64,000 bases of DNA. It comes from Paraescarpia echinospica (Eukaryota; Annelida; Polychaeta; Sabellida; Siboglinidae). The translations under genes and the position numbers were made by a program. Positions 2,103 through 64,000 of the stretch are shown piece by piece. The notes beneath the pieces were generated by a model. The model worked only from the letters and a program-made list of their open reading frames with translations. It made no database searches and was not told the origin of the DNA. Numbering within the stretch: position 1 is the first letter of the stretch; every line of letters begins with the position of its first letter. The stretch spans positions 33,913,852-33,977,851 of the forward strand of contig CM034541.1 of the NCBI GenBank assembly GCA_020002185.1. The letters run 5' to 3'.

Positions 2103-2447
2103 ATGGCCGAGTTCAATCCGTATTGTGGCTATAACGACGAAATCCCCACAACGAAACCTGGTTACTGGCCAATCTGTGATCCAGCATCTGTACCTGCTAC
2201 AACTGCCGGCCGTTGTTGTATTACCTTCACATATAGCCCATCGACTCTTACCCCTGTTCCTGTTTTTAAACGGGAAATCGAAAATGCCGAAATAAAACGA
2301 ACCGGTCGTCAACGAGTGTTGAATGACGTTATTGTGTTCAGTGTAGGCGACGACTGTCTCACGGCCCAACATTGTAACACTGACACTGTCTCATGGTCCA
2401 ACATTGCCACACTGACACTGTCTCATGGCCCAACATTGCCACACTGA
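2103..2447 (+). other. Open reading frame of unknown status before the 32-bp array
   Basis: An open frame of 114 codons begins just after an in-frame stop and runs into the first units of the 32-bp array. The part before the array (about 85 codons) has several Cys, Pro and Thr residues, for example NPYCGY and GRCCITF. No known domain was recognised, and the opposite strand is open too. It could be an unrecognised exon or chance. A good polypyrimidine acceptor lies at about 2023-2035 but does not lead into this frame. Confidence 0.2.
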
Positions 2448-5400
2448 TAATCGTTCACGGCCCAACATTGTAACACTGATACTGTCTTATAGCTCAACAT
2501 TGTGACACTGATACTGTCTCATGATCCAACATTGTGAGACTGATACTGTCTCACGGCCCAACATTATAACACTGATACTGTCTCACGGCCCAACATTGCA
2601 ACACTGACACTGTCTCACGGCCCAACATTGGCACAGTGACACTGTCTCACGGCCCAACATTGCCACACTGACACTGTCTCACGGCCCAACATTGCCACAC
2701 TGACACTGTCTCACGGCCCAACATTGCCACACTGACACTGTCTCACGGTCCAACATTGCTACACTGACACTGTCTCACGGCCCAACATTGCCACACTGAC
2801 ACTGTCTCACGGTCCAACATTGCTACACTGACACTGTCTCACGGCCCAACATTGCCACACTGACACTGTCTCACGGCCCAACATTGCCACACTGACACTG
2901 TCTCACGGTCCAACATTGCTACACTGACACTGTCTCACGGCCCAACATTGCCACACTGATACTGTCTCACGGTCCAACATTGCCACACTGACACTGTCTC
3001 ACGGTCCAACATTGCTACACTGACACTGTCTCACGGCCCAACATTGCTACACTGACACTGTCTCACGGTCCAACATTGCTACACTGATACTGTCTCACGG
3101 TCCAACATTGCTACACTGACACTGTCTCACGGCCCAACATTGCCACACTGATACTGTCTCACGGTCCAACATTGCTACACTGACACTGTCTCACGGCCCA
3201 ACATTGCTACACTGACACTGTCTCACGGTCCAACATTGCTACACTGACACTGTCTCACGGTCCAACATTGCCACACTGATACTGTCTCACGGTCCAACAT
3301 TGCTACACTGACACTGTCTCACGGCCCAACATTGCTACACTGACACTGTCTCACGGTCCAACATTGCTACACTGATACTGTCTCACGGCCCAACATTGCC
3401 ACACTGACAGTGTCTTATGGCCCAACATTGCGACACTGACATTGTCTCACAGCCCAACATTGCCACACTGACACTGTCTCACGGGCCAACATTGCCACAC
3501 TGACACTGTCTCACAGCCCAACATTGCCACACTGATACTGTCTCACGGCCCAACATTGCCACACTGACACTGTCTCACGGCCCAACATTGCCACATTGAC
3601 ACTGTCTCACGGCCCAACATTGCCACACTGATACTGTCTCACGGCCCAACATTGCCACACTGACACTGTCTCATGGTCCAACATTGCAACACTGATACCA
3701 GCTGTCTCACGGCCCAACATTGCCACACTGACACTGTCTCATGGCCCAACATTGTGACACTGATACTGTCTCATGGCCCAACATTGCCACACTAACACTG
3801 TCTCACGGTCCAACATTGCTACACTGACACTGTCTCACGGCCCAACATTGTAATACTGATACTGTCTCACGGCCCAACATTGCCACACTGACAGTGTCTT
3901 ATGGCCCAACATTGCGACACTGACATTGTCTCACAGCCCAACATTGCCACACTGACACTGTCTCACGGGCCAACATTGCCACACTGACACTGTCTCACGG
4001 CCCAACATTGCCACACTGATACTGTCTCACGGCCCAACATTGCCACTCTGACACTGTCTCACGGCCCAACATTGCCACACTGATACTGTCTCATGGCCTA
4101 ACATTTCGACACTGACATTGTCTCACGGCCCAACATTGCCACACTGACACTGTCTCACGGCCCAGCATTGCCACACTGACACTGTCTCATGGCCCAACAT
4201 TGCCACACTGATACTGTCTCACGGCCCAACATTGCCACACTGACACTGTCTCACGGTCCAACATTGCAACACTGATACTAACTGTCTCACGGCCCAACAT
4301 TGCCACACTGACACTGTCTCATGGCCCAACATTGTGACACTGATACTGTCTCATGGCCCAACATTGCCACACTGACACTGTGTCACGGCCCAACATTGCC
4401 ACACTGATACTCTCTCACGGCCCAACATTGCCACACTGACACTGTCTCATGGCCCAACATTGCGACACTGACTTTGTCTCACAGCCCAACATTGCCACAC
4501 TGACACTGTCTCACGGCCCAACATTGCCACACTGATACTGTCTAACGGCCCAACATTGTGACACTGACACTGTCTCACAGTCCAACATTACCACACTGAC
4601 ACTGTCTCACGGCCCAACATTGCCACACTGACACTGTCTCACGGCCTAACATTGCCACACTGACACTGTCTCACGGCCCAACATTGCCACACTGGCACTG
4701 TCTCACGTTCCAACATTGCCACACTGACACTGTCTCACGGTCCAACATTGCCACACTGACACTGTGTCACGGCCCAACATTGCCACACTGATACTGTCTC
4801 ACGGTCCAACATTGCCACACTGACACTGTCTCACGGCCCAACATTGCGACACTGACACTGTCTCACAGTCCAACATTGCCACACTGATACTGTCTCACGG
4901 CCCAACATTGTGACACAGATACTGTCTCGCGGTCCAATTTTGCCACACTGACATTGTCTCACGGCCCAACATTGCCACACTGACACTATCTCACGGTCCA
5001 ACATTGCCACACTAACACTGTCTCACGGTCCAACATTGCCACACTGACACTGTCTCACGGTCCAACATTGCCACACTGACACTGTCTCACGGGCCAACAT
5101 TGCCACACTGACACTGTCTCACGGCCCAACATTGCCACACTGACACTGTCTCACGGCCCAACATTGCCACACTGATACTGTCTCATGGCCCAACATTTCG
5201 ACACTGACATTGTCTCACGGCCCAACATTGCCACACTGACACTGTCTCATGGCCCAACATTGCCACACTGACACTGTCTCACGGCCCAACATTGCCACAC
5301 TGATACTAGCTGTCTCACGGCCCAACATTGCCACACAGACACTGTCTCACGGCCCAACATTGCAACACTGATACTAGCTGTCTCACGGCCCAACATTGCC

Positions 5401-6785
5401 ACACTGACACTGTCTCACGGTCCAACATTGCAACACTGATACTAGCTGTCTCACGGCCCAACATTGCCACACTGACACTGTCTCATGGCCCAACATTGTG
5501 ACACTGATACTGTCTCATGGCCCAACATTGCCACACTGACACTGTCTCACGGTCCAACATTGCTACACTGACACTGTCTCACGGCCCAACATTGTAATAC
5601 TGATACTGTCTCACGGCCCAACATTGCGACACTGACAGTGTCTTATGGCCCAACATTGCGACACTGACATTGTCTCACAGCCCAACATTGCCACACTGAC
5701 ACTGTCTCACGGGCCAACATTGCCACACTGACACTGTCTCACTGCCCAACATTGCCACACTGATACTGTCTCACGGCCCAACATTGCCACACTGACACTG
5801 TCTCACGGCCCAACATTGCCACACTGATACTGTCTCATGGCCCAACATTTCGACACTGACATTGTCTCACGGTCCAACATTGCCACACTGACACTGTCTC
5901 ACGGCCCAACATTGCCACACTGACACTGTCTCATGGCCCAACATTGCCACACTGATACTGTCTCACGGCCCAACATTGCCACACTGACACTGTCTCACGG
6001 TCCAATATTGCAACACTGATACTAACTGTCTCACGGCCCAACATTGCCACACTGACACTGTGTCACGGCCCAACATTGTGACACTGATATTCTCTCACGG
6101 CCCAACATTGCCACACTGACACTGTGTCACGGCCCAACATTGCCACACTGATACTCTCTCACGGCCCAACATTGCCACACTGACACTGTCTCATGGCCCA
6201 ACATTGCGACACTGACTTTGTCTCACAGCCCAACATTGCCACACTGACACTGTCTCACGGCCCAACATTGCCACACTATCATTGTCTCACAGTCCAACAT
6301 TGCCACACTGACACTGTCTCACGGCCTAACTTTGCCACACTGAGACTGTCTCACGGCCCAACATTGCCACACTGGCACTGTCTCACGTTCCAACATTGCC
6401 ACACTGACACTGTCTCACGGTCCAACATTGCCACACTGACACTGTCTCACGGCCCAACATTGCCACACTGATACTGTCTCACGGTCCAACATTGCCACAC
6501 TGACATTGTCTCACGGCCCAACATTGCGACACTGACACTGTCTCACGGTCCAACATTGCCACACTGATACTGTCTCACGGCCCAACATTGTGACACAGAT
6601 ACTGTCTCGCGGTCCAATTTTGCCACACTGACATTGTCTCACGGCCCAACATTGCCACACTGACACTATCTCACGGTCCAACATTGCCACACTAACACTG
6701 CCTCACGGTCCAACATTGCCACACTGACACTGTCTCATGGCCCAACATTGCCACACTGACATTGTCTCACGGCCCATCAGTGCCA
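2353..6785. repeat. 32-bp minisatellite array, about 138 units
   Basis: The unit is 32 bp, of the type CACGGCCCAACATTGCC followed by ACACTGACACTGTCT. Recurrent variants include GGTCCAAC, GCGACACTGACATTG, GTCTTATGG and a 36-bp form containing GATACTAGCTG. Marker variants recur in the same order about 1.7 kb apart (for example 3882 and 5624, 4464 and 6207, 4686 and 6367), so part of the array has itself been duplicated. Short open frames in it are repeat artefacts because 32 is not a multiple of 3. The array sits in the presumed intron between EGF and vanin-like exons and resumes at 10962 after the gypsy element. Confidence 0.97.
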
Positions 6786-7441
6786 CACTGAAGAGCGCCC
6801 GCTTCGAGCCGTATGTGGAAGAGAAGGAGAGATTCGTAAACTATGTTGAACGGTTCGAGTTCTTCGTGATCAGTAACGGTGTATCCGCAGATGTCAAAAA
6901 ATACATTTTCCTGTCAAACGTTGGCGCTGAATGCTACGCGAAGTTGAAGACGCAACTGATGCCGGAGACACCGGCAAATGCGGACTACGATGAGGTAATT
7001 CGTGCGGCGACCACGGTTTACAAACAGCAACTAACAAGCATAGGTTTGAGAAACAAATTCATGAACAGACTGCATAGGCCTTCAGATTCAGTGGCGCAGT
7101 TTGCGCTGGCGTACCTTGAGTTATGCGGTGAATGTGAGTACCCAAGTGATTATCAAGATGAGGCTCTGAGAGACATGTTCGTAAATGGCCAGAACTTCAC
7201 GGCGGTACAAGCGAAGTTAATGCTCAGAGACAATTCGCTAACGTTCAATGAGGCTTATCAGACGGCGATCGCCGAGGAAATGGCCGTGAAGAGCTCAGCG
7301 GAGTTCAATGAAACGCCCGAAGATACTCCATCGGCGACGGCAGCGGTGCATCACGTGACTAGTCGGGGATCACCAAGACAGAAGCAGACGATGGTGCCGG
7401 CCGACCGAGAGTGCTTCCGATGTGGCAGACACTGCTGCTAA
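6784..7441 (+). pseudogene. gypsy gag remnant
   Basis: The frame encodes a capsid-like gag (ARFEPY, RFEFFVISNGV, AYLELCGECEY) ending in the beginning of a CCHC zinc knuckle, CFRCGRHCC, where a stop interrupts it. The reading frame upstream of 6784 is array sequence, so the ATG at 6737 is not the original start. The product would be structural: particle assembly and RNA binding. Related gypsy gag genes usually continue into one or two full knuckles, which are lost here. The next frame begins 20 nt upstream of this stop and carries further knuckle-like residues (KCKF, CYLCDK), pointing to a small indel. Confidence 0.85.
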
Positions 7442-34264: not shown

Positions 34265-35644
34265 CAGAGATGGGTTAATCGCACTTTGTAATCGTACTCG
34301 TGGTAATCGTGGGCAACTTTTTGAGTATCATCGTATTCGTACTCGATTACATTAGTCAAAACGGCCAAGTAATAGTAATCCTACTCGATTACATTGCCAA
34401 AGTAATCGTAATCATGATTATTTAATCACGATTACAAAAAGTAAAAATGGCTATATTAGTAGTAATGAAACAAAATGTAATAGTAATTGAGCTATTACTT
34501 TTTTATTACAATTGAACATTTTAGTTGCATCAGAATTATGTTAGATTTCCCTAGTTAATGCCATCTCTGCCCATAAAAGCCACATCTCCTGCGTACTGTA
34601 GTAGTGCACAGTTATTATAGTGACCTAGTTTCCTAGTTGTTTCCAGCACTCGGCAACATTCTATTAACTGACTAGTCTGTATATATTGTGGTTACAATGG
34701 TATGATCTTATGAGGTCTCATTCAACTAGCCAGCCTTTTTCAGAACATTATCGCCAAGCCGACCTTTCTATGCTGGCACCGAGGGTGGTCACTGCCAGGG
34801 TGCTTGTCGTCCTCAGTGGTTCTTTTACGTCCCAAATTGAGACGAGACCGACATTAACGTGATCTCCGATTCACGAGGGATACACAGTCCCCAATGTTGA
34901 GAGCCAGGTTTTTACACCAAATATATCATACCTGCCCAGTCCGGGTATTGAACTCGGGGCGCCAGCATGTCAGGCTGATGTGCTAACCACTACACTATCG
35001 CGTGCCCCCGACAGCCTACATATAGGGAAAGCATTGTAGTGAATAAGCCTCTCCTGTCACTTTGCTCTGTAATTTTAGAAGCCATGCCACATGTACTGTT
35101 TGCACTGTTAGTACATATGCTGTGAATGACTGTTGATGGTTTCTACCTCCTGACTGGCTGGTTAGAGCTCTGCTAAATCCCTGACTGTTATGTCTAGGTT
35201 CACCATTGTATTCTGTTTGGCCTTTCTTAAAACTAACATATTTGATTTTGAATCTAACCATCTGTATTTGATTTTTTTGGTAATTTATTTGATCATGTGT
35301 ATTTGTGTTTGAAATTGTAAAAAGAAGGCATTTATTTATTTAATTATGTCAATTAATAGTAATAAAACTTGGATAGCAATAATCAGTTAGAGCATTAGAT
35401 ATTGTCTTAGCAACAGAAAAAGATCAATTCCTTCGAATTTGAAGGTCACATACATAGTAGAGACAGGATTTGCATATTCTTTAAAGTAATCAATCACTGA
35501 TTGTAGTTATGATTACATGCTAAAGTAATCATAATCGATTACATTTGTTTTCTGAGCAATCACTCTTAATTGTACTCATACATTTTCATTGTAATTGTAA
35601 TCGATTACAATTTACATTTGTATAGTAATCACTCTATTTCTGAC
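34265..35644. mobile_element. hAT-like non-autonomous remnant
   Basis: Both ends carry dense GTAATCG/CGATTAC sequence. The left begins CAGAGATGGGTTAATCG and the right ends TAGTAATCACTCTATTTCTG, roughly inverted to each other, as in hAT-type elements. A SINE is inserted inside (34633-35009). No transposase frame. The 8-bp target duplications expected for hAT are not clear. Confidence 0.45.
34633..35009 (-). mobile_element. tRNA-derived SINE, copy 1
   Basis: On the minus strand the element starts GGGGGCACGCGATAGTGTAG, with A box TAGTGTAGTGGTTAGCAC and B box GAGTTCAATACCC about 40 bp later, followed by a 300-bp body. A second copy lies at 45258-45632 in the same orientation with about 90 percent identity by eye. 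The body includes GGCAGTGACCACCCTC and CTTGGCGATAATGTTCTG. Confidence 0.85.
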
Positions 35645-40520: not shown

Positions 40521-40573
40521 CGATGTTATAGATATTTTTCTGCTGTTGTTGAGGCTCTGTGAAAACGACTGGC

Positions 40574-40789
40574 AAAAACCTCACCTTCATACTCTCCAAC
40601 AAAAACCTCACCTTCATACTCTCCAACAAAAACCTCACCTTCATACTCTCCAACAAAAACCTCACCTTCATACTCTCCAACAAAAACCTCACCTTCATAC
40701 TCTCCAACAAAAACCTCACCTTCATACTCTCCAACAAAAACCTCACCTTCATACTCTCCAACAAAAACCTCACCTTCATACTCTCCAAC
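40574..40789. repeat. 27-bp tandem repeat, eight perfect units
   Basis: Eight copies of AAAAACCTCACCTTCATACT plus CTCCAAC. Because 27 is a multiple of 3, several frames stay open on both strands (9-residue periods such as KNLTFILSN and EVFVGEYEG). These frames have no start context or flanking domain and are taken as artefacts. Confidence 0.98.
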
Positions 40790-41267
40790 AAAAACCATGA
40801 TTTGTACCCCCCTTGGGAAAAACCATGATTTGTACCCCCATTGGGGCTCACCAAAAAACCCACCTTCAGGCTCTCCAGAAACTTCAAATTATACCTACAA
40901 ATGTACCCCTTACCTAAATATTGGGAAGCTAATCCTATCTCCAGCACTCCATGAAAAATTACTACAAAATCCACGCCCTTTCCCTAAATATTGGGGGCTA
41001 GTCTTATACCCAACCCCCCCACCAAAAATATTGAGGGGGCTGAGTGCCCCTACCCCCCCCCCCCGGTTCCGACACCTATGTCTCACAAATAAATGAACCA
41101 ATGTTTGGCTTTCCGTACCACATATGTTCAATGGACTAGCATCAGCATATGGACAATCAATACAACGAAAATCTTACAAAAAGCGAAAATAATTCAATAC
41201 ATAGGGTATGTATCTTTTTCTTGAAAAAAGTTGCAGTTCTCCAGGGTTGATTATGGGTTTTTTCTGG

Positions 41268-43517: not shown

Positions 43518-44434
43518 TAACGTTGTATATATATATTGTATATATATGTATATATATAGTTGTATATATATATATTTGTATGTGTTCAGGAGACTAGTAG
43601 GGTTGTAAAGTCCACATTTCTTTCACTTACGTCAGTGTGCCGAAAAAAGGCCTATGCACTGGTTCCCCGTAATAAACAAACATCATCCATTTGGCCTATT
43701 TATATCTATATTGGCCTCTGTGTTGTTGCTTGCATAAATTACACTTCTTCCATCTCCTGAGTGACAGGAATTTCGTACGTACTAAAAGCAGTCATACAAT
43801 TTATTTGGCTGTAGTACCAGAGCTTGTCTACGTAAAATTTGATGACCATTTCAGCCAATTGTTTATTCTGTAGTGATTGGTAACTGCTATGTTCCTTAGT
43901 TGTAGAAGCGGAATCACTTAAGTATTGGTTAACATGAAAGCAGTCAAGCTTTTTCTGAGTAGTTCAATGATTTTCTTTATGCTGAAGGGCATAAAACAAA
44001 GTTTAAACGTGAATAAGTGCTTTTGGGAAGCACTTTGGCGAGGGTCATAGAATATGATGTTTTACATTGAAAAAGACCAAAGACAGATATAATAGTAAAC
44101 CGAGATTGTAGTTGAAGACAGCAAACTATTTTTATGGAGACAGTGTTTGTTAACATTGGGTAATTAGCTGGGTGCAGAAACAGAAATGTTGACGACTTTA
44201 TTACAAGCCATCAGCCAACAAAATACACTGCTATCCTGTTGGTTGTTTTTTCATTAAAATAACTGCCAAAGGATGACTATATTTAACATTTATTCTCGTT
44301 TAACATTATATTAAAATTTTTATTTTTGACAGGTATGAGAAGATTTCTTACAAATTGTTCATTTATTTGTTTGTATTTCACTTAATTACATCTCTTCATA
44401 GGACTAACAGTGCATTTGTCCCACGCATAACGGC
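41779..44434. repeat. Dispersed TGTCCCAYGCATAAC motif copies
   Basis: Copies start at 41779, 42157, 42346, 42565, 42725 and 44417 on the plus strand, and one lies on the minus strand at about 43046-43068. Best matches are TGTCCCACGCATAACG at 42157 and 44417; the others differ at one to four positions. They recur 160-400 bp apart in otherwise unrelated sequence. Confidence 0.8.
43993..44345 (+). pseudogene. Captured piece of the GALK2-like gene
   Basis: This 353-bp segment closely matches 53113-53469: the last 344 bp of a GALK2-like intron, its TTTTTGACAG acceptor, and the first 13 nt of the exon (GTATGAGAAGATT). After that the sequences part. It lies wholly inside the 41625-44586 element, so the element or its ancestor took up a host acceptor site. 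The acceptor motif is intact, so it could serve as a cryptic splice site. Confidence 0.88.
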
Positions 44435-44618: not shown

Positions 44619-45257
44619 AAATATATATATGCATCATGACAGAGGTAAAGTATCATGTATGTACAAATATGTATTTTCTTATTGTTTTAAATGATTTTTT
44701 AACAAATTCACTACCCCCTGGTAGTTTTAGCAAATTAATATTTTACCGTGTTTCCTGTATTTTTATTCAATCTTTATGATTGCAAGGAAATAAATTATGT
44801 TATTATTTGTTTGTAATTTATATAAATGTATTCTTGGGACATAGCATTGTTATTATTAGTTAATTGTGTAAAACACATTGATCATTAGGATCAGGCATGT
44901 ACAATTTAACTAGCATTTTAGATGAAAAGGCAAAGTTCCTGAAACAAATAACGTTAGACAAATAACTCATAAGCAACACAGCTTAGAGTTGGCCAAAATC
45001 TACATGAATTTGCAGTGAAAAAAGAAGATACAAATATTTTATAATACTTTGTCTTGATGACCTGCATTCACTGGCCAGGCAGTTGTAGTTGCAGTCCGAG
45101 ACAAACATCAGCGATGTCATAGTTTCTGACTACAGCTGCACTTAATTATGAACTATAAATCCCACTGCACTATCCATAATTGTTACGTATGTAACACATA
45201 ATAGTATACAATGTGTTATGTAATCATTTATTAATTGTATTTTTGTACTTCTAGTTC
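44587..45257. other. No gene recognised
   Basis: AT runs at the left (44588-44630), then AT-rich DNA without recognisable structure. Confidence 0.5.
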
Positions 45258-45632
45258 TAGTTGTTTTCAGCACTCGTCAACGTTCTATTAACTGACTAGT
45301 CTGTATTGTTGTGGTTACAATGTTACGATCTTATGAGGTCTCATTCAACTAGTCAGCCTTTTTCAGAACATTATCGCCAAGCCGACCTTTCTATGCTGGC
45401 ACTGAGGGTGGTCACTGCCAGGGTGCTTGTCGTCCTCAGTCGTTCTTTCACATCCCAAATTGAGACGGGACCGACATTAATGTGATCTTCGAGTCATGAG
45501 GGATACACAGTCCCCAATGTTGAGACCCAGGTTTTTACACCAAATATACCATACCTGCCCGGTCCGGGTATTGAACTCGGGGCGCCGGCATGTCAGGCGG
45601 ATGTGCTAACCACTACACTATCGCGCGCCCCC
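45258..45632 (-). mobile_element. tRNA-derived SINE, copy 2
   Basis: Same family and orientation as 34633-35009. The minus strand begins GGGGGCGCGCGATAGTGTAG, with GTTAGCACATCC and GAGTTCAATACCCGG promoter boxes, then the shared body. The copies differ by scattered substitutions. Confidence 0.85.
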
Positions 45633-53112: not shown

Positions 53113-53456
53113 AAAACAAAGTTTAAATGTGACAGTGCTATTGGGAAGCACTTTGGCGAGGGTCATAAAATATAATGTTTTATATTGAAAAAGACCAAAG
53201 ACAGATATAATAGTAAACCCAGATTGTAGTTGAAGACAGCAAACTATTTTTATGGAGACAGTGTTTGTTAACATTGGGTAATTAGCTGGGTGCAGAAACA
53301 GAAATGTTGACAACTTTATTAGAAGACATCAGCCAACAAAATACACTGCTATCCTGTTGGTTGTTTTTTTCATCACGTAAAAATAACAGCTAAAGGATGA
53401 TTATATTTAACATTTATTCTTGTTTAACATTATATTAAATTTTTTATTTTTGACAG
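53113..53456 (+). other. GALK2-like intron end duplicated at 43993
   Basis: This is the source copy of the segment found inside the 41625-44586 element. It ends in the acceptor ATTTTTGACAG. Confidence 0.85.
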
Positions 53457-53545
53457 GTATGAGAAGATTGGAAAAAGTTTTGAGAAGAAACATGGCGTGC
53501 CGCCTGAGTTCTTCGCCCGGGCCCCTGGACGTGTCAACTTGATTG
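53457..53545 (+). CDS. GALK2: GALK2-like kinase, exon with galactokinase signature N-half
   Basis: An 89-bp exon lies between acceptor TTTTTGACAG and donor ATTG|GTGAGG; it starts in phase 2 and ends in phase 1. It encodes YEKIGKSFEKKHGVPPEFF followed by ARAPGRVNLIG, the substrate-binding N-terminal strand and first half of the galactokinase signature of GHMP kinases. The second half, EHIDYNGY, is coded by the exon at 61345, and the phases match exactly. GALK2 phosphorylates N-acetylgalactosamine (and galactose weakly) at C1 in the cytosol. The frame also stays open past the donor as far as 53811, but that part is intron. GALK2 rather than GALK1 is favoured by the downstream [11 protein letters not shown] and LQLANTN. 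Confidence 0.88.
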
Positions 53546-53848
53546 GTGAGGATTCTTCAACAGAAGACTCATTAATATTAGAAAACTGGGGCAGAAGAAA
53601 TAATGTCAATAGAAATATTTTTTTATTTACTGAAATGCCTTTATTCTCTCACGGACAGTATTTTTCTAATGATAATTTTTCAGTAAATATAATATTACAA
53701 AACTGGGTTGGTGAAAATCAGGTCCAATCAAAACATCCACAGAATATGTTATATAGAAAATGTACCGTTGGCTTTATTCTTACAAATGTGTACAGAACGT
53801 TTTGGTCGTAAAACTTTTGGTCAAGTGCAGAGTATATCATCTCATCAC

Positions 53849-54873
53849 AAATTTACATCAATTGGTCACACAGCATTTTGTTACAAAGTGTGGTGCACCA
53901 AATGATGTAACCACTCTGTAACAAAATGTTGTATGACCAATTGATGTAACCACTCTGTAACAAAATGTTGTATGACCAATTGATGTAACCACTCTGTAAC
54001 AAAATGTTGTATGACCAATTTATGTAACCACTCTGTAACAAAATGTTGTATGACCAATTGATGTAACCACTCTAACAAAATGTTGTATGACCAATTTATG
54101 TAACCACTCTGTAACAAAATGTTGTATGACCAATTTATGTAACCACTCTGTAACAAAATGTTGTATGACCAATTTATGTAACCACTCTGTAACAAAATGT
54201 TGTATGACCAATTGATGTAACCACTCTAACAAAATATTGTATGACCAATTGATGTAACCACTCTGTAACAAAATGTTGTATGACCAATTGATGTAACCAC
54301 TCTGTAACAAAATGTTGTATGACCAATTGATGTAACCACTCTGTAACAAAATGTTGTATGACCAATTGATGTAACCACTCTAACAAAATGTTGTATGACC
54401 AATTGATGTAACCACTCTAACAAAATGTTGTATGACCAATTGATGTAACCACTCTGTAACAAAATGTTGTTTGACCAATTGATGTAACCACTCTGTAACA
54501 AAATGTTGTATGACCAATTGATGTAACCACTCTGTAACAAAATATTGTATGACCAATTGATGTAACCACTCTGTAACGAAATGTTGTTTGACCAATTGAT
54601 GTAACCACTCTGTAACAAAATGTTGTATGACCAATTGATGTAACCACTCTGTAACAAAATGTTGTATGACCAATTGATGTAACCACTCTGTAACAAAATG
54701 TTGTATGACCAATTGATGTAACCACTCTGTAACAAAATGTTGTATGACCAATTGATGTAACCACTCTGTAACAAAATGTTGTATGACCAATTGATGTAAC
54801 CACTCAGTAACAAAATGTTGTATGACCAACTGATGTAACCACTCTGTAACAAAATGTTGTATGACCAATTGAT
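53849..54873. repeat. 39-bp minisatellite, about 25 units, with an inverted first unit
   Basis: The unit is CCAATTGATGTAACCACTCT plus GTAACAAAATGTTGTATGA. Some units lack GT after CACTCT (37 bp). Directly before the array, 53849-53887 is one unit in the opposite orientation (ACATCAATTGGTCACAC, CATTTTGTTACAAAG), giving a head-to-head start. Several overlapping minus-strand frames (period SYNILLQSGYINW) are artefacts of the 39-bp length. Confidence 0.96.
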
Positions 54874-56159
54874 GACTTCATTCCCAGAAGGACAGTAGTT
54901 TCTTTTGATGAATATGTTTCAGTATTACTCAGTAGCATTAACTGATTACTGTTTATCGTCTTTGTTTGGCAACAATAATTAAATATGATTTGGCAGCAAA
55001 TAATTATGTTTGCGTAGGTGCATCCTTGGCGGAGCTTGTCAAAAGGCGTTGTAAGCTCACTGAGAGATTGATCTGCGATGTCGGCACCCAAGACCTATCA
55101 TTGTCCTACAAGTGCATCATTCATGGATGCACTGAGGTGTTGTATCTAATGGTATCCTGCTTTCAATGGGATGGGGTGGCATAATCGGGTGAAAGGTGAC
55201 AAACATCTGTAGGCCAATGACCCTGAGGTGTCATCTAAATAGGGGAGAAATATTCACAGGTCACGTAATTAATTGTTTGCCTCAGAACATTAATTATGAA
55301 ACACATATTTGACTGTCATGTCGTTAGCATCTTTTCTGGAGTTTGGGATTTCATTTTACATAGGGTTTTTCCAGGTCATAGGCATGTGTGGGGGGGGGGC
55401 ATGTGTCCCCCCCTTACTTACTACCCATTACATCCCCTGGCATTTAGGGCAGCGACAAAGTTCCTCCACCTCTGTGCCCCCCTAGTCCTTTGGAATTTGG
55501 CCGCGCTATGCCTGCACTTGAATGGCGTGTCGCCCTAGACCTCTTGATGGTGGCTTGGCTGGAACAAATTTTCAACAGCACCCGTGTCTTCTGATGTCAT
55601 CAGTCGAGTCAAGACAACGGAGAAGCTGAAGTTACGGTGGCGCAGTGGCAAAAAACTTAGATGTCATGATCTGACAGCAGAGTTGTACTGAAGCTCCGGC
55701 TCAGACAATCCAATATAACTATGGTTCGGCTGCCAGTGGAGGTTGCTTGGCTAGCCTCAAGGGGTACAGTTGGAGGTTTATAGGCCCCCTAGACTACCCT
55801 CTCTGGAACTGCTCCTGAAGGGTGTATATAAACTGTAAATTGTGCAGTTGACATTCAGTATTTAGCAGAAATATCCACTGCAAAGCAACAGCATAAGCAA
55901 AACATGTAAATATAAAAGTGCCTGTAGTCTGGAACTTTAATAATATGTTATATAAAGTATGACATGTAGGCATACACAGAAACGCTAGGTTCATATATTG
56001 TGTGGCATCTGGTTTGACTGAGCCGTTTATTCTAACCTGATTTCGCGGGGAGATATTCAGCCATGCTGCAATCACATACAAATATTAATTCATTTACATA
56101 TCCACCATTGTCTGTATAGTTAGATACTCATAAATACAGCTGAACGAATGTTTCATGAC

Positions 56160-56440
56160 ACGCACACAATGTGTGTGTGTGCATGCGTGCGTGCGTGGTG
56201 TGGTGTGTTTGTGTGTGTGAGAGTGTATGAGTGTGTGTTTGTGTGTGTGTGCATATACATGCATGCATGCATGCATACATATAATTAATTTATACTGTGT
56301 ATGTACAAACATATATACCAAGTGGTACATTGGTACATACATAGCTATGTACATACATAGTTATATACATACATAGCTATGTACATACATAGCTATGTAC
56401 ATACATAGCTATGAACATACATAGTAACATACATATATAT
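56160..56440. repeat. GT, CATG and ACATAGCTATGT simple repeats
   Basis: GTGTGT and GTGCGTGC runs, a CATGCATGCATG run, then about six copies of ACATACATAGCTATGT up to the 50-bp array. Confidence 0.9.
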
Positions 56441-56448
56441 TTATATTG

Positions 56449-59400
56449 TAGGTGAGCATATCGACCCCAATGGCTACGCAATGTTGTTGTTTGTCTTGCA
56501 GGTGAGCACTTAGACCACTAAGTTGTTTGTCTTGTAGGTGAGCACCTAGACCACTAAGTTGTTTGTCTTGTAGGTGAACACATAGACCACTAAGTTGTTT
56601 GTCTTGTAGGTGAGCACATAAACTACAATGGCTACACAGTGTTGTTTTCTGACTTGTAGGTGAGCACATAGACTACAATGGCTACACAGTGTTGTTGTCT
56701 GACTTGTACTTTTAGGTGAGCACATAGACTACAATAGCTGTGCAGTGTTGTTGTCTGAATACTACTTGTAGGTGAGCACATAAACTACAATGGCTACGCA
56801 GTGTTGTTGTCTGACGTGTACTTTTAGGTGAGCACATAGACTACAATAGCTGTGCAGTGTTGTTGTCTGACTACTACTTGTAGGTGAACACATAGACTAC
56901 AATGGCTATGCAGTGTTGTATGCCTTGTAGGTGAGCACATAGATTACAATGGCTATGCAGTGTTGTTGTCTGTCTTGTAGGTGAGCACATAGACTACAAT
57001 GGCTATGCAGTGTTGTTGTCTGTCTTGTAGGTGAGCACATAGACTACAATGGCTATGCAGTGTTGTTGTCTGTCTTGTAGGTGAGCACATATACTACAAT
57101 GGCTATGCAGTGTTGTTGTATGCCTTGTAGGTGAACACATATACTACAATGGCTATGCAGTGTTGTTGTATGCCTTGTAGGTGAACACATAGACTACAAT
57201 GGCTATGCAGTGTTGTTGTCTGTCTTGTAGGTGAGCACATAGACTACAATGGCTATGCAGTGTTGTTGTCTGTCTTGTAGGTGAGCACATATACTACAAT
57301 GGCTATGCAGTGTTGTTGTCTGTCTTGTAGGTGAACACATAGACTACAATGGCTATGCAGTGTTGTTGTCTGTCTTGTAGGTGAACACATAGACTACAAT
57401 GGCTATGCAGTGTTGTTGTATGCCTTGTAGGTGAACACATAGACTACAATGGCTATGCAGTGTTGTTGTCTGTCTTGTAGGTGAACACATATACTACAAT
57501 GGCTATGCAGTGTTGTTGTATGCCTTGTAGGTGAACACATAGACTACAATGGCTATGCAGTGTTGTTGTCTGTCTTGTAGGTGAACACATAGACTACAAT
57601 GGCTATGCAGTGTTGTTGTCTGTCTTGTAGGTGAGCACATAGACTACAATGGCTATGCAGTGTTGTTGTCTGTCTTGTAGGTGAACACATATACTACAAT
57701 GGCTATGCAGTGTTGTTGTCTGTCTTGTAGGTGAACACATAGACTACAATGGCTATGCAGTGTTGTTGTCTGTCTTGTAGGTGAACACATAGACTACAAT
57801 GGCTATGCAGTGTTGTTGTATGCCTTGTAGGTGAACACATAGACTACAATGGCTATGCAGTGTTGTTGTCTGTCTTGTAGGTGAACACATATACTACAAT
57901 GGCTATGCAGTGTTGTTGTATGTCTTGTAGGTGAACACATAGACTACAATGGCTATGCAGTGTTGTTGTCTGTCTTGTAGGTGAACACATAGACTACAAT
58001 GGCTATGCAGTGTTGTTGTCTGTCTTGTAGGTGAGCACATAGACTACAATGGCTATGCAGTGTTGTCTGTCTTGTAGGTGAACATATATATTACGATGGC
58101 TATGTAGTGTTGTTGTCATAGACTACAATGACTATGCAGTGTTGCTGTATGCCTTGTAGGTGAGCACATAGACTACAATGGTTATGCAGTGTTGTTGTCT
58201 GTCTTGTAGGTGAGCACATAGACTACAATGGTTATGCAGTGTTGTTGTCTGTCTTGTAGGTGAGCACATAGACTACAATGGCTATGCAGTGTTGTCTGTC
58301 TTGTAGGTGAGCACATAGACTACAATGGTTATGCAGTGTTGTTGTCTGTCTTGTAGGTGAGCACATAGACTACAATGGCTATGCAGTGTTGTTGTCTGTC
58401 TTGTAGGTGAGCACATAGACTACAATGGTTATGTAGTGTTGTTGTCTGTCTTGTAGGTGAGCATATAAACTACAATGGCTATGCAGTGTTGTTGTCTGTC
58501 TTGTAGGTGAGCACATAGACTACAATGGTTATGCAGTGTTGTTGTCTGTCTTGTAGGTGAGCACATAGACTACAATGGTTATGCAGTGTTGTTGTCTGTC
58601 TTGTAGGTGAGCACATAGACTACAATGGTTATGCAGTGTTGTTGTCTGTCTTGTAGGTGAGCACATAGACTACAATGACTATGCAGTGTTGTTGTGTGTC
58701 TTGTAGGTGAGCACATAGACTACAATGGTTATGCAGTGTTGTTGTCTGTCTTGTAGGTGAGCACATAGACTACAATGACTATGCAGTGTTGTTGTATGTC
58801 TTGTAGGTGAGCACATAGACTACAATGGTTATGCAGTGTTGTTGTCTGTCTTGTAGGTGAGCACATAGACTACAGTGGTTATGCAGTGTTGTTGTCTGTC
58901 TTGTAGGTGAGCACATAGACTACAATGGCTATGCAGTGTTGTTGTCTGTCTTGTAGGTGAACATATAGATTACGATGGCTATGTAGTGTTGTTGTCTGTC
59001 TTGTAGGTGAACATATAGATTACGATGGCTATGTAGTGTTGTTGTCATAGACTACAATGACTATGCAGTGTTGTTGTATGCCTTGTAGGTGAGCACATAG
59101 ACTACAATGGTTATGCAGTGTTGTTGTCTGTCTTGTAGGTGAGCACATAGACTACAATGGTTATGCAGTGTTGTTGTCTGTCTTGTAGGTGAGCACATGG
59201 ACTACAATGGTTATGCAGTGTTGTTGTCTGTCTTGTAGGTGAGCACATAGACTACAATGGTTATGCAGTGTTGTTGTCTGTCTTGTAGGTGAGCACATAG
59301 ACTACAATGACTATGCAGTGTTGTCGTCTGTCTTGTAGGTGAGCACATAGACTACAATGGTAATGCAGTGTTGTTGTCTGTCTTGTAGGTGAGCTCATAG

Positions 59401-59946
59401 ACTACAATGACTATGCAGTGTTGTTGTATGTCTTGTAGGTGAGCACATAGACTACAATGGTTATGCAGTGTTGTTGTCTGTCTTGCAGGTGAGCACATAG
59501 ACTACAATGGTTATGCAGTGTTGTTGTCTGTCTTGTAGGTGAGCACATAGACTACAATGGCTATGCAGTGTTGTTGTCTGTCTTGTAGGTGAACATATAG
59601 ATTACGATGGCTATGTAGTGTTGTTGTCATAGACTACAATGACTATGCAGTGTTGTTGTATGCCTTGTAGGTGAACATATAGATTACGATGGCTATGTAG
59701 TGTTGTTGTCATAGACTACAGTGGCTATGCAGTGTTGTTGTCTGTCTTGTAGGTGAACATATAGATTACGATGGCTATGTAGTGTTGTTGTCATAGACTA
59801 CAATGACTATGCAGTGTTGTTGTATGCCTTGTAGGTGAGCACATAGACTACAATGGTTATGCAGTGTTGTTGTCTGTCTTGTAGGTGAGCACATAGACTA
59901 CAATGGTTATGCAGTGTTGTTGTCTGTCTTGTAGGTGAGCACATCG
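56449..59946 (+). repeat. 50-bp array derived from the GALK2 intron-exon junction, about 70 units
   Basis: The typical unit is GTGAGCACATAGACTACA plus ATGGCTATGCAGTGTTG plus TTGTCTGTCTTGTAG. The first 35 nt equal the start of the GALK2-like exon at 61345 except for occasional third-base changes. The last 15 nt equal the intron just before that exon. A TGTTG at both places gives a natural slippage point. The left end holds shorter and more diverged units; the bulk (56930-58070) is almost uniform. A 46-bp variant with GTCATAGACTACAATGACT recurs at 58117, 59045, 59627, 59703 and 59793, marking higher-order blocks. In frame, each unit ends in a stop (TAG at the acceptor). Confidence 0.97.
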
Positions 59947-60908
59947 TGATGTGCTCGCCAATGAGCTCATGCAAGAAAATTCGGGCTGCTTTACGCTTAA
60001 AAGGTACGGAAATAAGTCTCAATACTGTTTCGAGACGTCTCAGCAAGGAATTTGGGCTCAAGTTCCGCAAGCCGGCCCGGAAGCCACGCCTGACACCTGT
60101 GATGAAAAACAAGAGACTGGACTTTGCCAGACGACATCGCCACTGGACTCTCGCGCAGTGGAAGAAAGTGTTGTTCTCAGATGAATCGACCATGCGACAG
60201 TTTATTCCTCGCAAGAGGCACGCTAGGCGGCCAGTAGGTAAGCGATTTGATGAGAAATATACAGCAGCCACAATGAAACACCTGCCAAGTCAGATGATTT
60301 GGGGTGCTATGTCATGTTTTGGCCCTTCTGGTCTGTATTGTATTCCACCTAACACCACTGTGAATGGACCTAGGTACATGGAGTTGCTGTAGGAGAAGCT
60401 GAAACTGCATATGGACATCCACAAATGTACGATTTCCATGCAAGATGGTGCTCCTTGTCACCGATCCAAGGTAGCCACTGATTTCCTCAAGAAGAACAAA
60501 ATCTCCATGCTGGAATGGCCTGGGAACAGCCCAGATCTAAATCCCATTGAGAACCTGTTGACTATAATGAAGGATAAGGTGGCAGACAAACAACCACCAA
60601 GCGCTCAAAACTTGAAACAAGCTATCAAGGACGTTTGGGTCACCGAAATCATCCAGGAGTACTGCGAATCTCTGGTTTCTTGCATGCCATATCGCATCCA
60701 GGCGGTCATTGACAGCAAAGGAGGCCATACTAAATACTGAAAAGTAGAGACACTGACACTTTTGGATGACAGAAAGTTTCATATTATGTTGTACTACGTT
60801 TATTTGGCGAAATAAACTGATATAATGTTATGTGAAGGCCAAAAAATCACAGTTTTGTAAAATTTCTTCAAAAAATCGTGCCTGGTCTTAAACATTTGCA
60901 AATGACTG
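59947..60908 (+). mobile_element. Tc1-like DNA transposon, left end missing
   Basis: The element is inserted in the 50-bp array. The right end reads TTAAACATTTGCAAATGACTG and is followed by TA and array sequence (TAGACTACAATGG), as expected for insertion at a TA. The left inverted repeat and the start of the transposase are missing; instead the array runs into GAGCACATCGTGATGTGCTC, a perfect 8-bp hairpin with a 4-nt loop made from array and element sequence. Confidence 0.92.
59967..60740 (+). pseudogene. Tc1-type transposase, truncated with one in-frame stop
   Basis: The frame encodes the end of the second helix-turn-helix (LNTVSRRLSKEFGLKFRKPA) and a DD34E catalytic domain: first Asp in LFSDEST, second in MQDGAPCH, and Glu in SPDLNPIEN, 34 residues after the second Asp. 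The N-terminal DNA-binding half is absent. A single TAG at 60390-60392, after RYMELL, breaks an otherwise open frame that ends GGHTKY at 60740. The catalytic residues are intact, but the truncation and the stop make it non-functional. The usual length is about 340 residues; about 260 remain. Confidence 0.92.
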
Positions 60909-61344
60909 TAGACTACAATGGCTATGCAGTGTTGTTGTCTGACTTGTAGGTGAACACATAGACTACAATGACTATGCAGTGTTGTTGTCTGTCTTGTAGG
61001 TTAGCACATAGACTACAATGGCTACACAGTGTTGTTGTCTGTCTTGTAGGTGAGCACATAGACTACAATGGCTATGCAGTGTTGTTGTCTGTCTTATAGG
61101 TGAGCACATAGACTAGCTACACAGTGTTGTTGTCTGTGTTGTAGGTGAGCACATAGACTACAATGGCTACGCAGTGTTGTTGTCTGTCTTTTAGGTGAGC
61201 ACATAGACTACAATGGCTACGCAGTGTTGTTGTCTGTCTTATAGGTGAGCACATAGACTACAATGGCTATGCAGTGTTGTTGTCTGTCTTATAGGTGAGC
61301 ACATAGACTACAATGGCTACGCAGTGTTGTTGTCTGTCTTGTAG
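60909..61344 (+). repeat. 50-bp GALK2-derived array, right part, about nine units
   Basis: Continues the array after the Tc1 element and leads directly into the true exon. Units here more often read GGCTACGCAG, as the true exon does, and acceptors vary (TCTTATAG, TCTTTTAG, TGTTGTAG). These right-hand units are thus closest to the source. Confidence 0.96.
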
Positions 61345-61471
61345 GTGAGCACATAGACTACAATGGCTACGCAGTGTTGCCCATGGCTGTGGAACAGGAC
61401 ATTGTGATAGCAGCATCATCTGACCCTCACAGTATGCTGCTTCAGTTGGCAAATACAAACTCAGAATATCA
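61345..61471 (+). CDS. GALK2: GALK2-like kinase, exon completing the galactokinase signature
   Basis: A 127-bp exon lies between acceptor TGTCTTGTAG and donor TATCA|GTAAGT; it starts in phase 1 and ends in phase 2. It encodes [20 protein letters not shown], then [20 protein letters not shown] and [10 protein letters not shown] completes the galactokinase signature begun in the 53457 exon; the Glu, His and Asp contact the sugar in the family. VLPMAVEQD and LQLANTN are typical of GALK2. The first 35 nt are the same as the unit of the array that ends right here, so this exon is the source or last unit of the array. The acceptor is immediately followed by GTGAGC. Remaining exons, with the ATP-binding GHMP motif, lie beyond the window. 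Confidence 0.92.
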
Positions 61472-61759
61472 GTAAGTTTGTGTTAAATATTTCTTAATAT
61501 TTAATAAGAAATATGTGTAATACAATTACCGTGCAACATTTGATCAATCTCGCAAATTGGTCACCTCTAAGCGTAATCTTTGGGACCTCACTGGATCTGG
61601 AGCTGTTAGTCGGACATATCAGTCACTGGGAGTATGATTGATCTGCCTGTTTTAACATTTGAAAGCAAAGAAGTTTTTAGACCTTTTTTGTATCTAATAC
61701 AGAAGTTGGCAGCACTAGCAAATCATAAATCTTGCAGATCGATGATGTTGATGAAAACG
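61472..61759. other. Intron start, no feature recognised
   Basis: AT-rich intron sequence between the GALK2-like exon and the LINE. Confidence 0.5.
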
Positions 61760-63300
61760 CACATCGTGTTTTACTTTTTAGCTGAAAATACACTCAGTTA
61801 CATTTAGTATTAATCACATCACTTTTTATCTACGTGTATCCTGCCTTTTTAAGGTATGTATCGATTTTACTTTTAAACATATTCACGCTACTAGCACCAA
61901 CACAATCAGGAGACAATCTGTTCCATTCATTTAGAGTCCTTTGTGATAATGAGAACTTTCTTATATCTAATCTACACTGCTCCTAGAATATTTCTATCAA
62001 TATTTTCATAACCATCCAATATTTTAAACACTTCTATCTGATCTCCTCTCAATCTCCTGGTCTCTAGTGTTGTTAAACCACATTTTTTAGGCGTATTTCG
62101 TAACTAAGATCCCTCAGTTTTGGTATCATTTTAGTTGCTCTCCTCTGTACTCTTTCTAGCATATCTATGTCCTTCCTGCGATATGGCCTCCACGCTTGAC
62201 TACAGTATTCTAAATGAGGCCTAACTATTGTCTTGTACAGCGATATTATTAGCTCTTTTTCCTTATACCTTATGTTTCGCCTAATTAATCCAATGATTTG
62301 ATTTCCCTTTGAAGCGGCTATACCGCACAGCTCTGAAACCCTTCATATCAGCATTAATGGTTAACCCTAAGTCCTTTTCTTTTACAGTAATACTTACCTG
62401 GGTAGTACAGAATCTCCCATTGTATATTGTATATCTTCGTTCCCATGTCCTGAGTGGAGGCATTTACATTTCCCAAAATTGAACAACATTTGCCATTTTT
62501 CAGACCATTTTATCAACTTGTCAAGATCATCTTGTAAATGCTGTCTATCTTCATCACGTTTAATCCTTCTAAACAATTTTGTATCATCCGCAAATTTCAA
62601 CACCTTGCTTGTTATATCATCGTCCAAATCGTTTGATATATAATAAGAATATTATAGGTCCCAGTACTGATCCCTGTGGTACCCCACTCAAAACTGATTT
62701 CCAGTTTGAAGCCTCCCCATCAACTACTACACGTTGTCTTGTGTCAATCAGCCATTTTTCTATCCAGTTTATTATACCATTTCCTATGCCATGGGCCTTT
62801 AGTTTAAGCAGTAATCTTTGATGTGGCACTTTGTTGAAAACTTTCTGAAAATCTAAGTAGATGATATCTACTGGTGATTCCTCATCTACCCACTTAGTGA
62901 TATCTTCCAAAAAACATAACATATTTGTTAAGCATGACCTCGCTTTTAGAAACCCATGTTGAGATGGGTTTATCAAGTTATGTTTAACAAGAAAAACCAC
63001 CATGTGATCTTTAATTAGTCTTTCTAATAATTTACAAATCACCGATGTTAAACTCACTGGTCTGTAGTTCTCTGACTTGTTTTTGGAACCTTTTTTAAAT
63101 AACGGTATAATGTTTGCTTCTTTCCATTCTAAAGGAACCACTCCCTCTTGTAATGACAAGTTGAAAACTGTTGCAAGCGGTATGCTAATTTGTTCTACAA
63201 TTTCTAATAGTAGTTTGGGCGGAATCCCATCCACTCCAGGTGATTTATTATCCTTCATAGCCCTAATTGTCTTAGCTATCATTTGTACTCTACTGGAGAA
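61760..63300 (-). mobile_element. CR1-like LINE, RT and C-terminal part
   Basis: On the minus strand from 63300: MKDNKSPGVDGIPPKLLLEI, LFKKGSKNKSENYRPVSLTS, DIIYLDFQKVFNKVPHQRL and LSGVPQGSVLGPIIFLLYI. After a frameshift near 62620 come VLKFADDTKLFRRI, DDLDKLIKWSEKWQMLFNFG and weaker C-terminal remnants to about 61850. The KSPGVDGIPPKLL and WSEKWQM-FN--KC boxes are typical of CR1-group RTs. 5' truncated and broken by stops in the last third. It lies antisense in the GALK2-like gene. Confidence 0.9.
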
Positions 63301-63393
63301 ATAATGACTAGTGATTTAGAATATTGATAGTTTGCATAAATTGAAGCATAGTGTTTATCACTGTGCAGGGTTTATGCCAGAACAACAACAATA

Positions 63394-63520
63394 ACAAGTC
63401 ACTGCAGGGTCAGAAGTCTGCCTAAGGGCATTCACCAATAACAAGTCACTGCAGGGTCAGAAGTCTGCCTAAGGGCATTCACCAATAACAAGCCACTGCA
63501 GGGTCAAAAGGCTGCATAAG
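63394..63520. repeat. 47-bp tandem repeat, about 2.7 units
   Basis: Two near-identical copies and a diverged third of AATAACAAGTCACTGCAGGG plus TCAGAAGTCTGCCTAAGGG plus CATTCACC. Confidence 0.92.
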
Positions 63521-63800
63521 GTCAAATCTCTGCAGGGGGTGGCTATCCAATCACAACATTGGCACCCTCTGAAACTCACCCTCTACCTCCTATATGCAGA
63601 GGGTAGCTGCCCAATCATAACATATACCCTTTGGCATGGGAAGTAAAGCTATCCAATCATCTACATTTGCCCAGGGTTATAGGAAGAACAGCTTCTACCC
63701 ACGATGCCATCTTTGTCTTTAGCACGAACAAAGAAGCACGTCACCCACCAACCAACCCCATTTATCCACCTTTGTAAATGATAGGAGGGTCAGTATCTCT
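63521..63800. repeat. Degenerate repeat region
   Basis: Several imperfect copies of GCTATCCAATCA or GCTGCCCAATCATAACA spaced about 50-70 bp. No coding region. Confidence 0.45.
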
Positions 63801-64000
63801 AAGGGGTTCAGACCCAGGATTCTGGACATGTGGCCACAGTCACATGACCATTGATCAAGTAGCTGGCCCAGGATCACATCTGGTCACGTAAAATATCTCT
63901 CGGCTTGACACCCAGAGGGATGCAGACCCAGGATTCTGGTCATGTGGCCGCAGTCACATAATGAAGTAACTGACCCAGGTCATGTGAAATATCCTGGTCT
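63801..64000. repeat. Repeat of about 105 bp, two units, cut by the window end
   Basis: Shared blocks are CAGACCCAGGATTCTGG, CATGTGGCC, CAGTCACAT, GCCCAGGATC or ACCCAGGTCA, and AAATATC. The array may continue beyond the window. Confidence 0.8.

Follow-up and report, generated by a model that had tools for sequence, protein, structure and literature searches.

The GALK2-Like Locus and Its Tandem Array

We analyzed 64,000 nucleotides of the genome of the siboglinid annelid Paraescarpia echinospica (assembly GCA_020002185.1, contig CM034541.1, positions 33,913,852 to 33,977,851 of the forward strand), hereafter the window, in whose coordinates all positions are given. Toward its end lie two exons of a GALK2-like gene, separated by an intron that carries a large 50-bp tandem repeat directly ahead of the downstream exon (Table 1). 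The exons are referred to as exon 2 and exon 3, a numbering of our own. Their joined peptide carries the galactokinase signature (Pfam PF10509, E 4.2e-21) and has an N-acetylgalactosamine kinase as its best match (2a2c, residues 1-54, E 1.2e-16, without a gap at the exon junction), which assigns the gene to GALK2 on the two exons that are seen. We take 2a2c to be human GALK2. No further exons were recognized by eye downstream (61472-64000), and the rest of the gene lies beyond the window. Both exons have open, conserved frames, which suggests that the gene is still under selection.

The repeat extends over approximately 56446-61379 and is divided by an insertion, as seen both by reading the sequence and with Tandem Repeats Finder (TRF), which reported a period of 50 with 61.1 copies at 56594-59628, a further 9.5 copies at 60909-61379, and a 36-bp sub-array at 56486-56620. 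It is therefore a minisatellite in the usual sense of head-to-tail copies of a 10-100 bp unit. In a wrap-around alignment, where a unit was counted if 20 or more of the 35 exon columns held a letter and exon 3 itself was excluded, 81 units, mostly of 50 bp, precede exon 3 (56446-61344). Each unit comprises 35 nt with complete or near-complete identity to the start of exon 3, the best units matching at 35/35 positions, and 15 nt matching the end of the preceding intron, most commonly in the form TTGTCTGTCTTGTAG, so that the source of the units is found within the same gene. These results bear out the initial annotation of the locus, which had described a minisatellite built from the gene's own splice acceptor and exon start and adjoining the true exon. 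That annotation had also considered that the unit might be repeated away from the gene; blastn found no further copy elsewhere in the 64-kb window. Most likely, the array arose by tandem duplication across the intron-exon boundary of the GALK2-like gene and then expanded as a minisatellite.

The units are not uniform. The distance from one junction to the next is 50 nt in 59 of 76 cases, and otherwise 36, 45, 47, 56 or 82 nt, or 1015 nt across a Tc1-like insert. We infer that each 82-nt unit is composed of 50 + 32 nt, i.e., two units that lost one junction through an 18-nt deletion, and it looks as if this deletion had spread together with the array. Over the exon columns, mean identity to the start of exon 3 is 93.9% for the 9 units at 56452-56883, 94.4% for the 24 units at 56884-58077, 92.2% for the 39 units at 58078-59934, and 97.0% for the last 9 units, which form the closest segment and include, among the final four, three units with a 35/35 match. 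The first unit belongs to the more diverged ones (30/35; of the units in which all 35 columns are present, a single one, at 58957, is lower, with 29) and still reads GEHIDPNGYAML. The pentamer TGTTG, shared by intron and exon, had been proposed as the point of slippage, but no such origin can be demonstrated: TGTTG is absent from the stretch preceding the first unit (catatatatttatattgtag), and hence the ancestral breakpoint is lost.

Table 1. Features of the GALK2-like locus and of related sequences in the window.
Feature	Position	Strand	Basis or remarks
GALK2-like exon 2, 89 nt	53457..53545	+	Acceptor TTTTTGACAG|GTATGA; donor TTG|GTGAGG; translation ends ...APGRVNLIG, continuous with exon 3
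Intron, 7799 bp	53546..61344	+	Includes a 39-bp minisatellite at 53897-54874 as well as the 50-bp array with the Tc1-like remnant
First decoy acceptor (TTATATTGTAG|) and first unit	56446..56501	+	Keeps the frame GEHIDPNGYAML
Three 36-nt units (21 nt exon part + 15 nt)	56502..56609	+	TRF, junction pattern
Bulk of the array, largely 50-nt units	56610..59934	+	Junction pattern, alignment
Five 82-nt units (58078, 59007, 59589, 59671, 59753)	within 56610..59934	+	
Degenerate Tc1-like element inside the array	about 59945..60908 (ends approximate)	+	Pieces of HTH_Tnp_Tc3_2 (PF01498) and DDE_3 (PF13358)
Last nine units, adjoining exon 3	60909..61344	+	Alignment
GALK2-like exon 3 (true exon), 127 nt	61345..61471	+	Begins GTGAGC; donor TCA|GTAAGT
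Second decoy: intron end and 13 nt from the start of exon 2, the remainder of which is absent	43993..44345	+	Direct copy of 53113-53469, about 355 bp, 93% identical

Acceptor and Donor Motifs Are Fused at the Junctions

Since exon 3 starts with GTGAGC directly after the AG of its acceptor, all copied junctions look like a 3' splice site and a 5' splice site at once. This dual appearance, which the initial annotation missed, is the main feature of the array. A search for the junction pattern AG|GT(G/T)A(G/A)C returned 77 sites between 56452 and 61345, the last being the start of the true exon 3, and the wrap-around alignment, a search independent of this pattern, likewise gave 77 AG. Therefore, 76 decoy acceptors stand ahead of the true one, close to the approximately 80 that had been announced, although the array is interrupted by the Tc1-like element and its units are not uniformly 50 bp long. 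The junctions read TAG|GTGAGC in 50 cases, CAG|GTGAGC in 2, TAG|GTGAAC in 24 and TAG|GTTAGC in 1, with AG|GT kept in 77/77, and the final six acceptor letters are TTGTAG (69), TTTTAG (3), TTATAG (3) or TTGCAG (2), making TTGTAG|GTGAGC the commonest junction. A 3' splice site motif directly before a 5' splice site motif, as at the ratchet points of recursive splicing, is thus found at all 77 junctions. Regarding them as competing acceptors, as had been done, is correct as far as it goes but incomplete, since the same junctions are also donor-like (52/77 with the strong GTGAGC, 24 with GTGAAC and 1 with GTTAGC), and a wrong choice of acceptor is therefore, in principle, re-splicable.

Donors were scored by their pairing energy with the 5' end of U1. 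TAG|GTGAGC scores -9.5 kcal/mol, which is equalled by 0.22% of the 3714 GT sites outside the array, and TAG|GTGAAC scores -6.8 kcal/mol, equalled by 1.5%. The donor of exon 2, TTG|GTGAGG, scores -8.6 kcal/mol. Because the upstream exon ends in this way, joining it to a GTGAGC unit rebuilds a similar donor: the regenerated junction scores -8.1 kcal/mol with GTGAGC and -5.4 kcal/mol with GTGAAC.

Under the strict pattern YAG|GTRAR, 77 sites occur within 56440-61400, namely 76 array junctions and one site in the Tc1-like remnant (60238), and 73 of these have at least 60% pyrimidine in the preceding 17 nt. Outside this interval, a pyrimidine-rich tract accompanies 0 of 4 such sites on the + strand and 2 of 5 on the - strand. 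Within the unit, AG|GT is the sole invariant block among the 50 circular blocks of four columns. In a post hoc comparison, 8 of 12 core columns vs. 12 of 38 others are invariant (Fisher p 0.044), and 2 of the 50 circular 12-column blocks reach 8.

Predicted Outcomes of Mis-splicing

Inclusion of a single unit introduces a stop for 76/76 decoys, and so does retention from a unit through to exon 3 (76/76), in agreement with the earlier statement that retained units bring a stop. The stop had been placed within 50 nt; this applies to 69/76 decoys, whereas the first in-frame stop ends within 62 nt in 75/76. The exception is the unit at 59935, from which the frame runs on into the Tc1-like piece for 181 codons, counted from exon 2. 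Splicing of exon 2 to this decoy would open a frame into the transposase (59935-60392) and might yield a GALK2-transposase chimera, which is probably a matter of chance.

Mis-spliced products are expected to carry mostly insertions of 50n nt. Insertions of 35 nt, which had been suggested as a signature, are not expected, because the 35-nt end of the unit (GCA|GTGTTG) is not a fair donor: its U1 score of -2.0 kcal/mol is equalled by 27% of the GTs in the window. Two further roles of the repeat were considered and ruled out. It is not a coding repeat, as lengths of 36, 45, 47, 50, 56, 82, and 1015 break the frame and stops fall within 62 nt in 75/76 cases. RNA structure as a function was rejected on the folds of two sequences, with z values of +0.40 and +0.44.

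The Tc1-Like Insert and Other Repeats

The Tc1-like element dividing the array is decayed, with an in-frame stop at 60390-60392, and one local alignment found no terminal inverted repeats. An acceptor-donor-like site, TAG|GTAAGC, is located within it at 60238. The mutual differences among the units, their varied lengths, and this remnant speak for an old array rather than a simple error of assembly.

A second copied acceptor of the same gene lies upstream at 43993-44345, where the end of the preceding intron and the first nucleotides of exon 2 are duplicated. This copy also has a donor-like start, CAG|GTATGA, with a U1 score of -7.2 that 1.2% of GT sites attain. Few such dispersed copies occur in the window (5 pairs at E <1e-15, with pairs within arrays set aside). 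The two cases, the array and the copy of the exon 2 acceptor, give only a hint that acceptor copies might survive where they are re-splicable. A further pair of direct copies, 34625-35009 and 45251-45632 (about 385 bp, 93.5% identical), may represent a mobile element.

Minisatellites are common in the window, where TRF reported further arrays with periods of 27-47 bp, and therefore the growth of the 50-bp array would need no special cause in itself. The TRF row with the most copies is a 32-bp minisatellite at 2353-6791 (about 138 copies). Twelve consensus units were selected manually among the 54 TRF rows. Of the 11 other than the 50-bp unit, AGGT occurs in three and an equally strong donor motif in one. 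The latter is the unit of a 27-bp array at 40573-40796, with 8.3 identical copies, each reading AAG|GTGAGG on the - strand (U1 -10.1). This array rules out a strong AGGT alone as the special property; what sets the 50-bp array apart is the location of its AGGT on an exon boundary.

Relation to Known Systems

The human IFI6 gene (6-16, G1P3) contains a minisatellite with repeats that are reportedly 12 bp long. According to the passages citing Turri, Cuin and Porter (1995) in PMC2572611 and PMC4526556, this minisatellite supplies multiple splice donors, and it thus resembles the array described here in that repeat units provide splice sites, some of them used alternatively. It differs in offering donor sites on short repeats, whereas here acceptor and donor motifs are fused in 50-bp units at 77 sites. 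A second relative is the potato RNA-dependent RNA polymerase (RdRp) gene described in PMC4974935, in which a tandem duplication across an intron-exon boundary created a new intron, as verified by RNA reads. There, too, the duplicated piece spans an intron end and an exon start, and the donor comes from the exonic part. However, as presented in that source, the potato case is a single, RNA-verified duplication, while here about 81 copies, with the donor motif exactly at the exon start, are seen in the genomic sequence. The same source describes the AGGT tandem-duplication model of Rogers and Hellsten (ATP2A1) and multi-copy 24-bp AGGT duplications in fission yeasts. In those cases, tandem copies of AGGT likewise supply the GT and AG for introns spanning several copies, but the duplications outlined there begin inside exons, whereas here the AGGT is an existing splice junction. 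At the present locus, the sequence would permit a new intron between duplicated copies, spliced out of the mRNA.

A further comparison is with the ratchet points of recursive splicing, which PMC8605326 characterizes as an acceptor paired with a donor and accompanied by a cryptic exon of about 50 nt. The likeness is close: an acceptor and a donor are juxtaposed, the cryptic exon is approximately 50 nt long, and a donor is regenerated after the first step. As portrayed in that source, ratchet points lie within long introns, whereas the present sites form a tandem array in which every potential cryptic exon would be closed by the next site of this kind, their use being putative.

Close precedents for the array therefore exist in the IFI6 donor minisatellite, the potato RdRp boundary duplication, and AGGT intron gain, and with at least the first two in print, as far as these sources describe them, the initial judgment that this is not a described class was too strong. 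The anatomy is nevertheless richer than the initial annotation stated, being that of a satellite of ratchet-like sites. A literature search for a minisatellite with a splice acceptor and an intron-exon boundary found no paper; the search was incomplete, so we do not claim absence from print.

How the Array Might Be Tolerated

Taken together, we tentatively hypothesize, with slightly less than even confidence, that the array is a boundary minisatellite in which exon 2 is normally spliced to the last acceptor, the use of a decoy can be undone by re-splicing, and expansion is nearly free of cost. A tandem duplication across the intron-exon boundary of the GALK2-like gene would have grown into a minisatellite of about 81 units. 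Splicing of exon 2 would normally proceed to the last acceptor, since no exon here other than the one it opens combines a conserved frame with a canonical GTAAGT donor of its own. Were a decoy used instead, the junction would read TTG|GTGAGC (or GTGAAC), which resembles the original donor and could be spliced again. By sequence, every ascending series of such steps that reaches 61345 gives the identical mRNA, and the array could therefore expand at little cost. It would be tolerated with decoy use being either rare or erased through re-splicing. As a thought model, if acceptors were drawn randomly from those remaining, about 4.9 steps would be needed on average (the harmonic number of 77), a figure that involves no measurement.

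Several points weigh against this hypothesis. A consensus branch point (yUnAy at -50 to -15) occurs at 1/77 acceptors, and a looser UnAy at 33/77, the true acceptor not being among them; animal branch points are degenerate. TAAC is found in this range at the first acceptor alone (27 nt upstream), and the true acceptor has no yUnAy, UnAy or TAAC between -50 and -15. Many decoys may be silent, and the true acceptor has no visible advantage in branch-point motifs. The weaker GTGAAC (-6.8) is present at 24/77 junctions, and the conservation of the junction as a sign of selection is marginal and was chosen after seeing the data. Nor is the true exon the sole candidate with a donor from outside the repeat, since the donor-like TAG|GTAAGC at 60238 lies 303 nt after the decoy at 59935.

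The donor of exon 3 poses a further difficulty. TCA|GTAAGT has a U1 score of only -5.1 (5.7% of GT sites are as good), and the regenerated TTG|GTGAGC (-8.1) is the stronger of the two. If donors compete as modelled in PMC8605326, such a weak donor would favor re-splicing past exon 3 itself, which at 127 nt would shift the frame, and something must therefore stop exon 3 from being re-spliced out. Results reported in that source are consistent with regenerated donors being suppressed once splicing has taken place, perhaps through the exon junction complex; the passages concerned call for further evidence on donor suppression and leave open how cryptic ratchet points evade it. Suppression of this kind would lock in wrong choices as well.

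The same observations could be explained without any re-splicing if exon definition and missing branch points leave the decoys unused, exon 2 is spliced directly to the last acceptor, and the dual sites arise by chance from the GGT GAG codons. This explanation, which we regard as possible but rather unlikely, agrees with the scarcity of yUnAy, with the conserved frame and canonical GTAAGT donor of the exon that the last acceptor opens, and with the abundance of other minisatellites in the window, by which growth would require no function. However, the last acceptor equally lacks yUnAy and UnAy and has the same unit sequence as the decoys, and its exon has a weaker donor (-5.1) than the decoys (-9.5). 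As such a donor follows each decoy, usually 50 nt on, exon definition could act on decoys too. The array might also be a self-erasing splice-site satellite in which every junction acts as a ratchet point and 76 false acceptors are corrected by repeated splicing. The donor-like start of the exon 2 acceptor copy, CAG|GTATGA, is in line with this idea, which we nevertheless consider doubtful.

Two other explanations concern the health of the gene or of the assembly. If decoys were often used and then retained, a share of transcripts would carry a stop, and the length of the array would lower or tune GALK2 output. The stop in every inclusion tested (76/76) would fit, as would the 52/77 junctions with a donor of stronger U1 score than that of the true exon, but the intact and conserved exon frame suggests a gene under selection, and we judge this outcome improbable. 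The least probable is that the locus represents an allele in decay, or a haplotype that was collapsed or joined in error. The copy of about 355 bp (intron end and 13 nt of exon 2) located 9.1 kb upstream at 93% identity is what a haplotype join could give, and the remainder of the gene is beyond the window. Against it stand the open, conserved exons 2 and 3, the mutually different units of varying length, and the decayed Tc1-like element within the array, and the last two of these observations make the assembly artefact considered by the initial annotation unlikely.

Implications

Tens of near-identical acceptor-donor motifs arranged serially before a conserved exon amount to a natural experiment in how a 3' splice site is chosen. 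If the mRNA is kept correct by re-splicing, introns could lengthen harmlessly from the edges of their exons, and minisatellite growth, AGGT intron gain, and recursive splicing would be linked. If the satellite does erase itself, exon starts resembling AG|GTRAG would be the places where acceptor duplications survive. If, by contrast, re-splicing fails, the number of units should tune GALK2 output.

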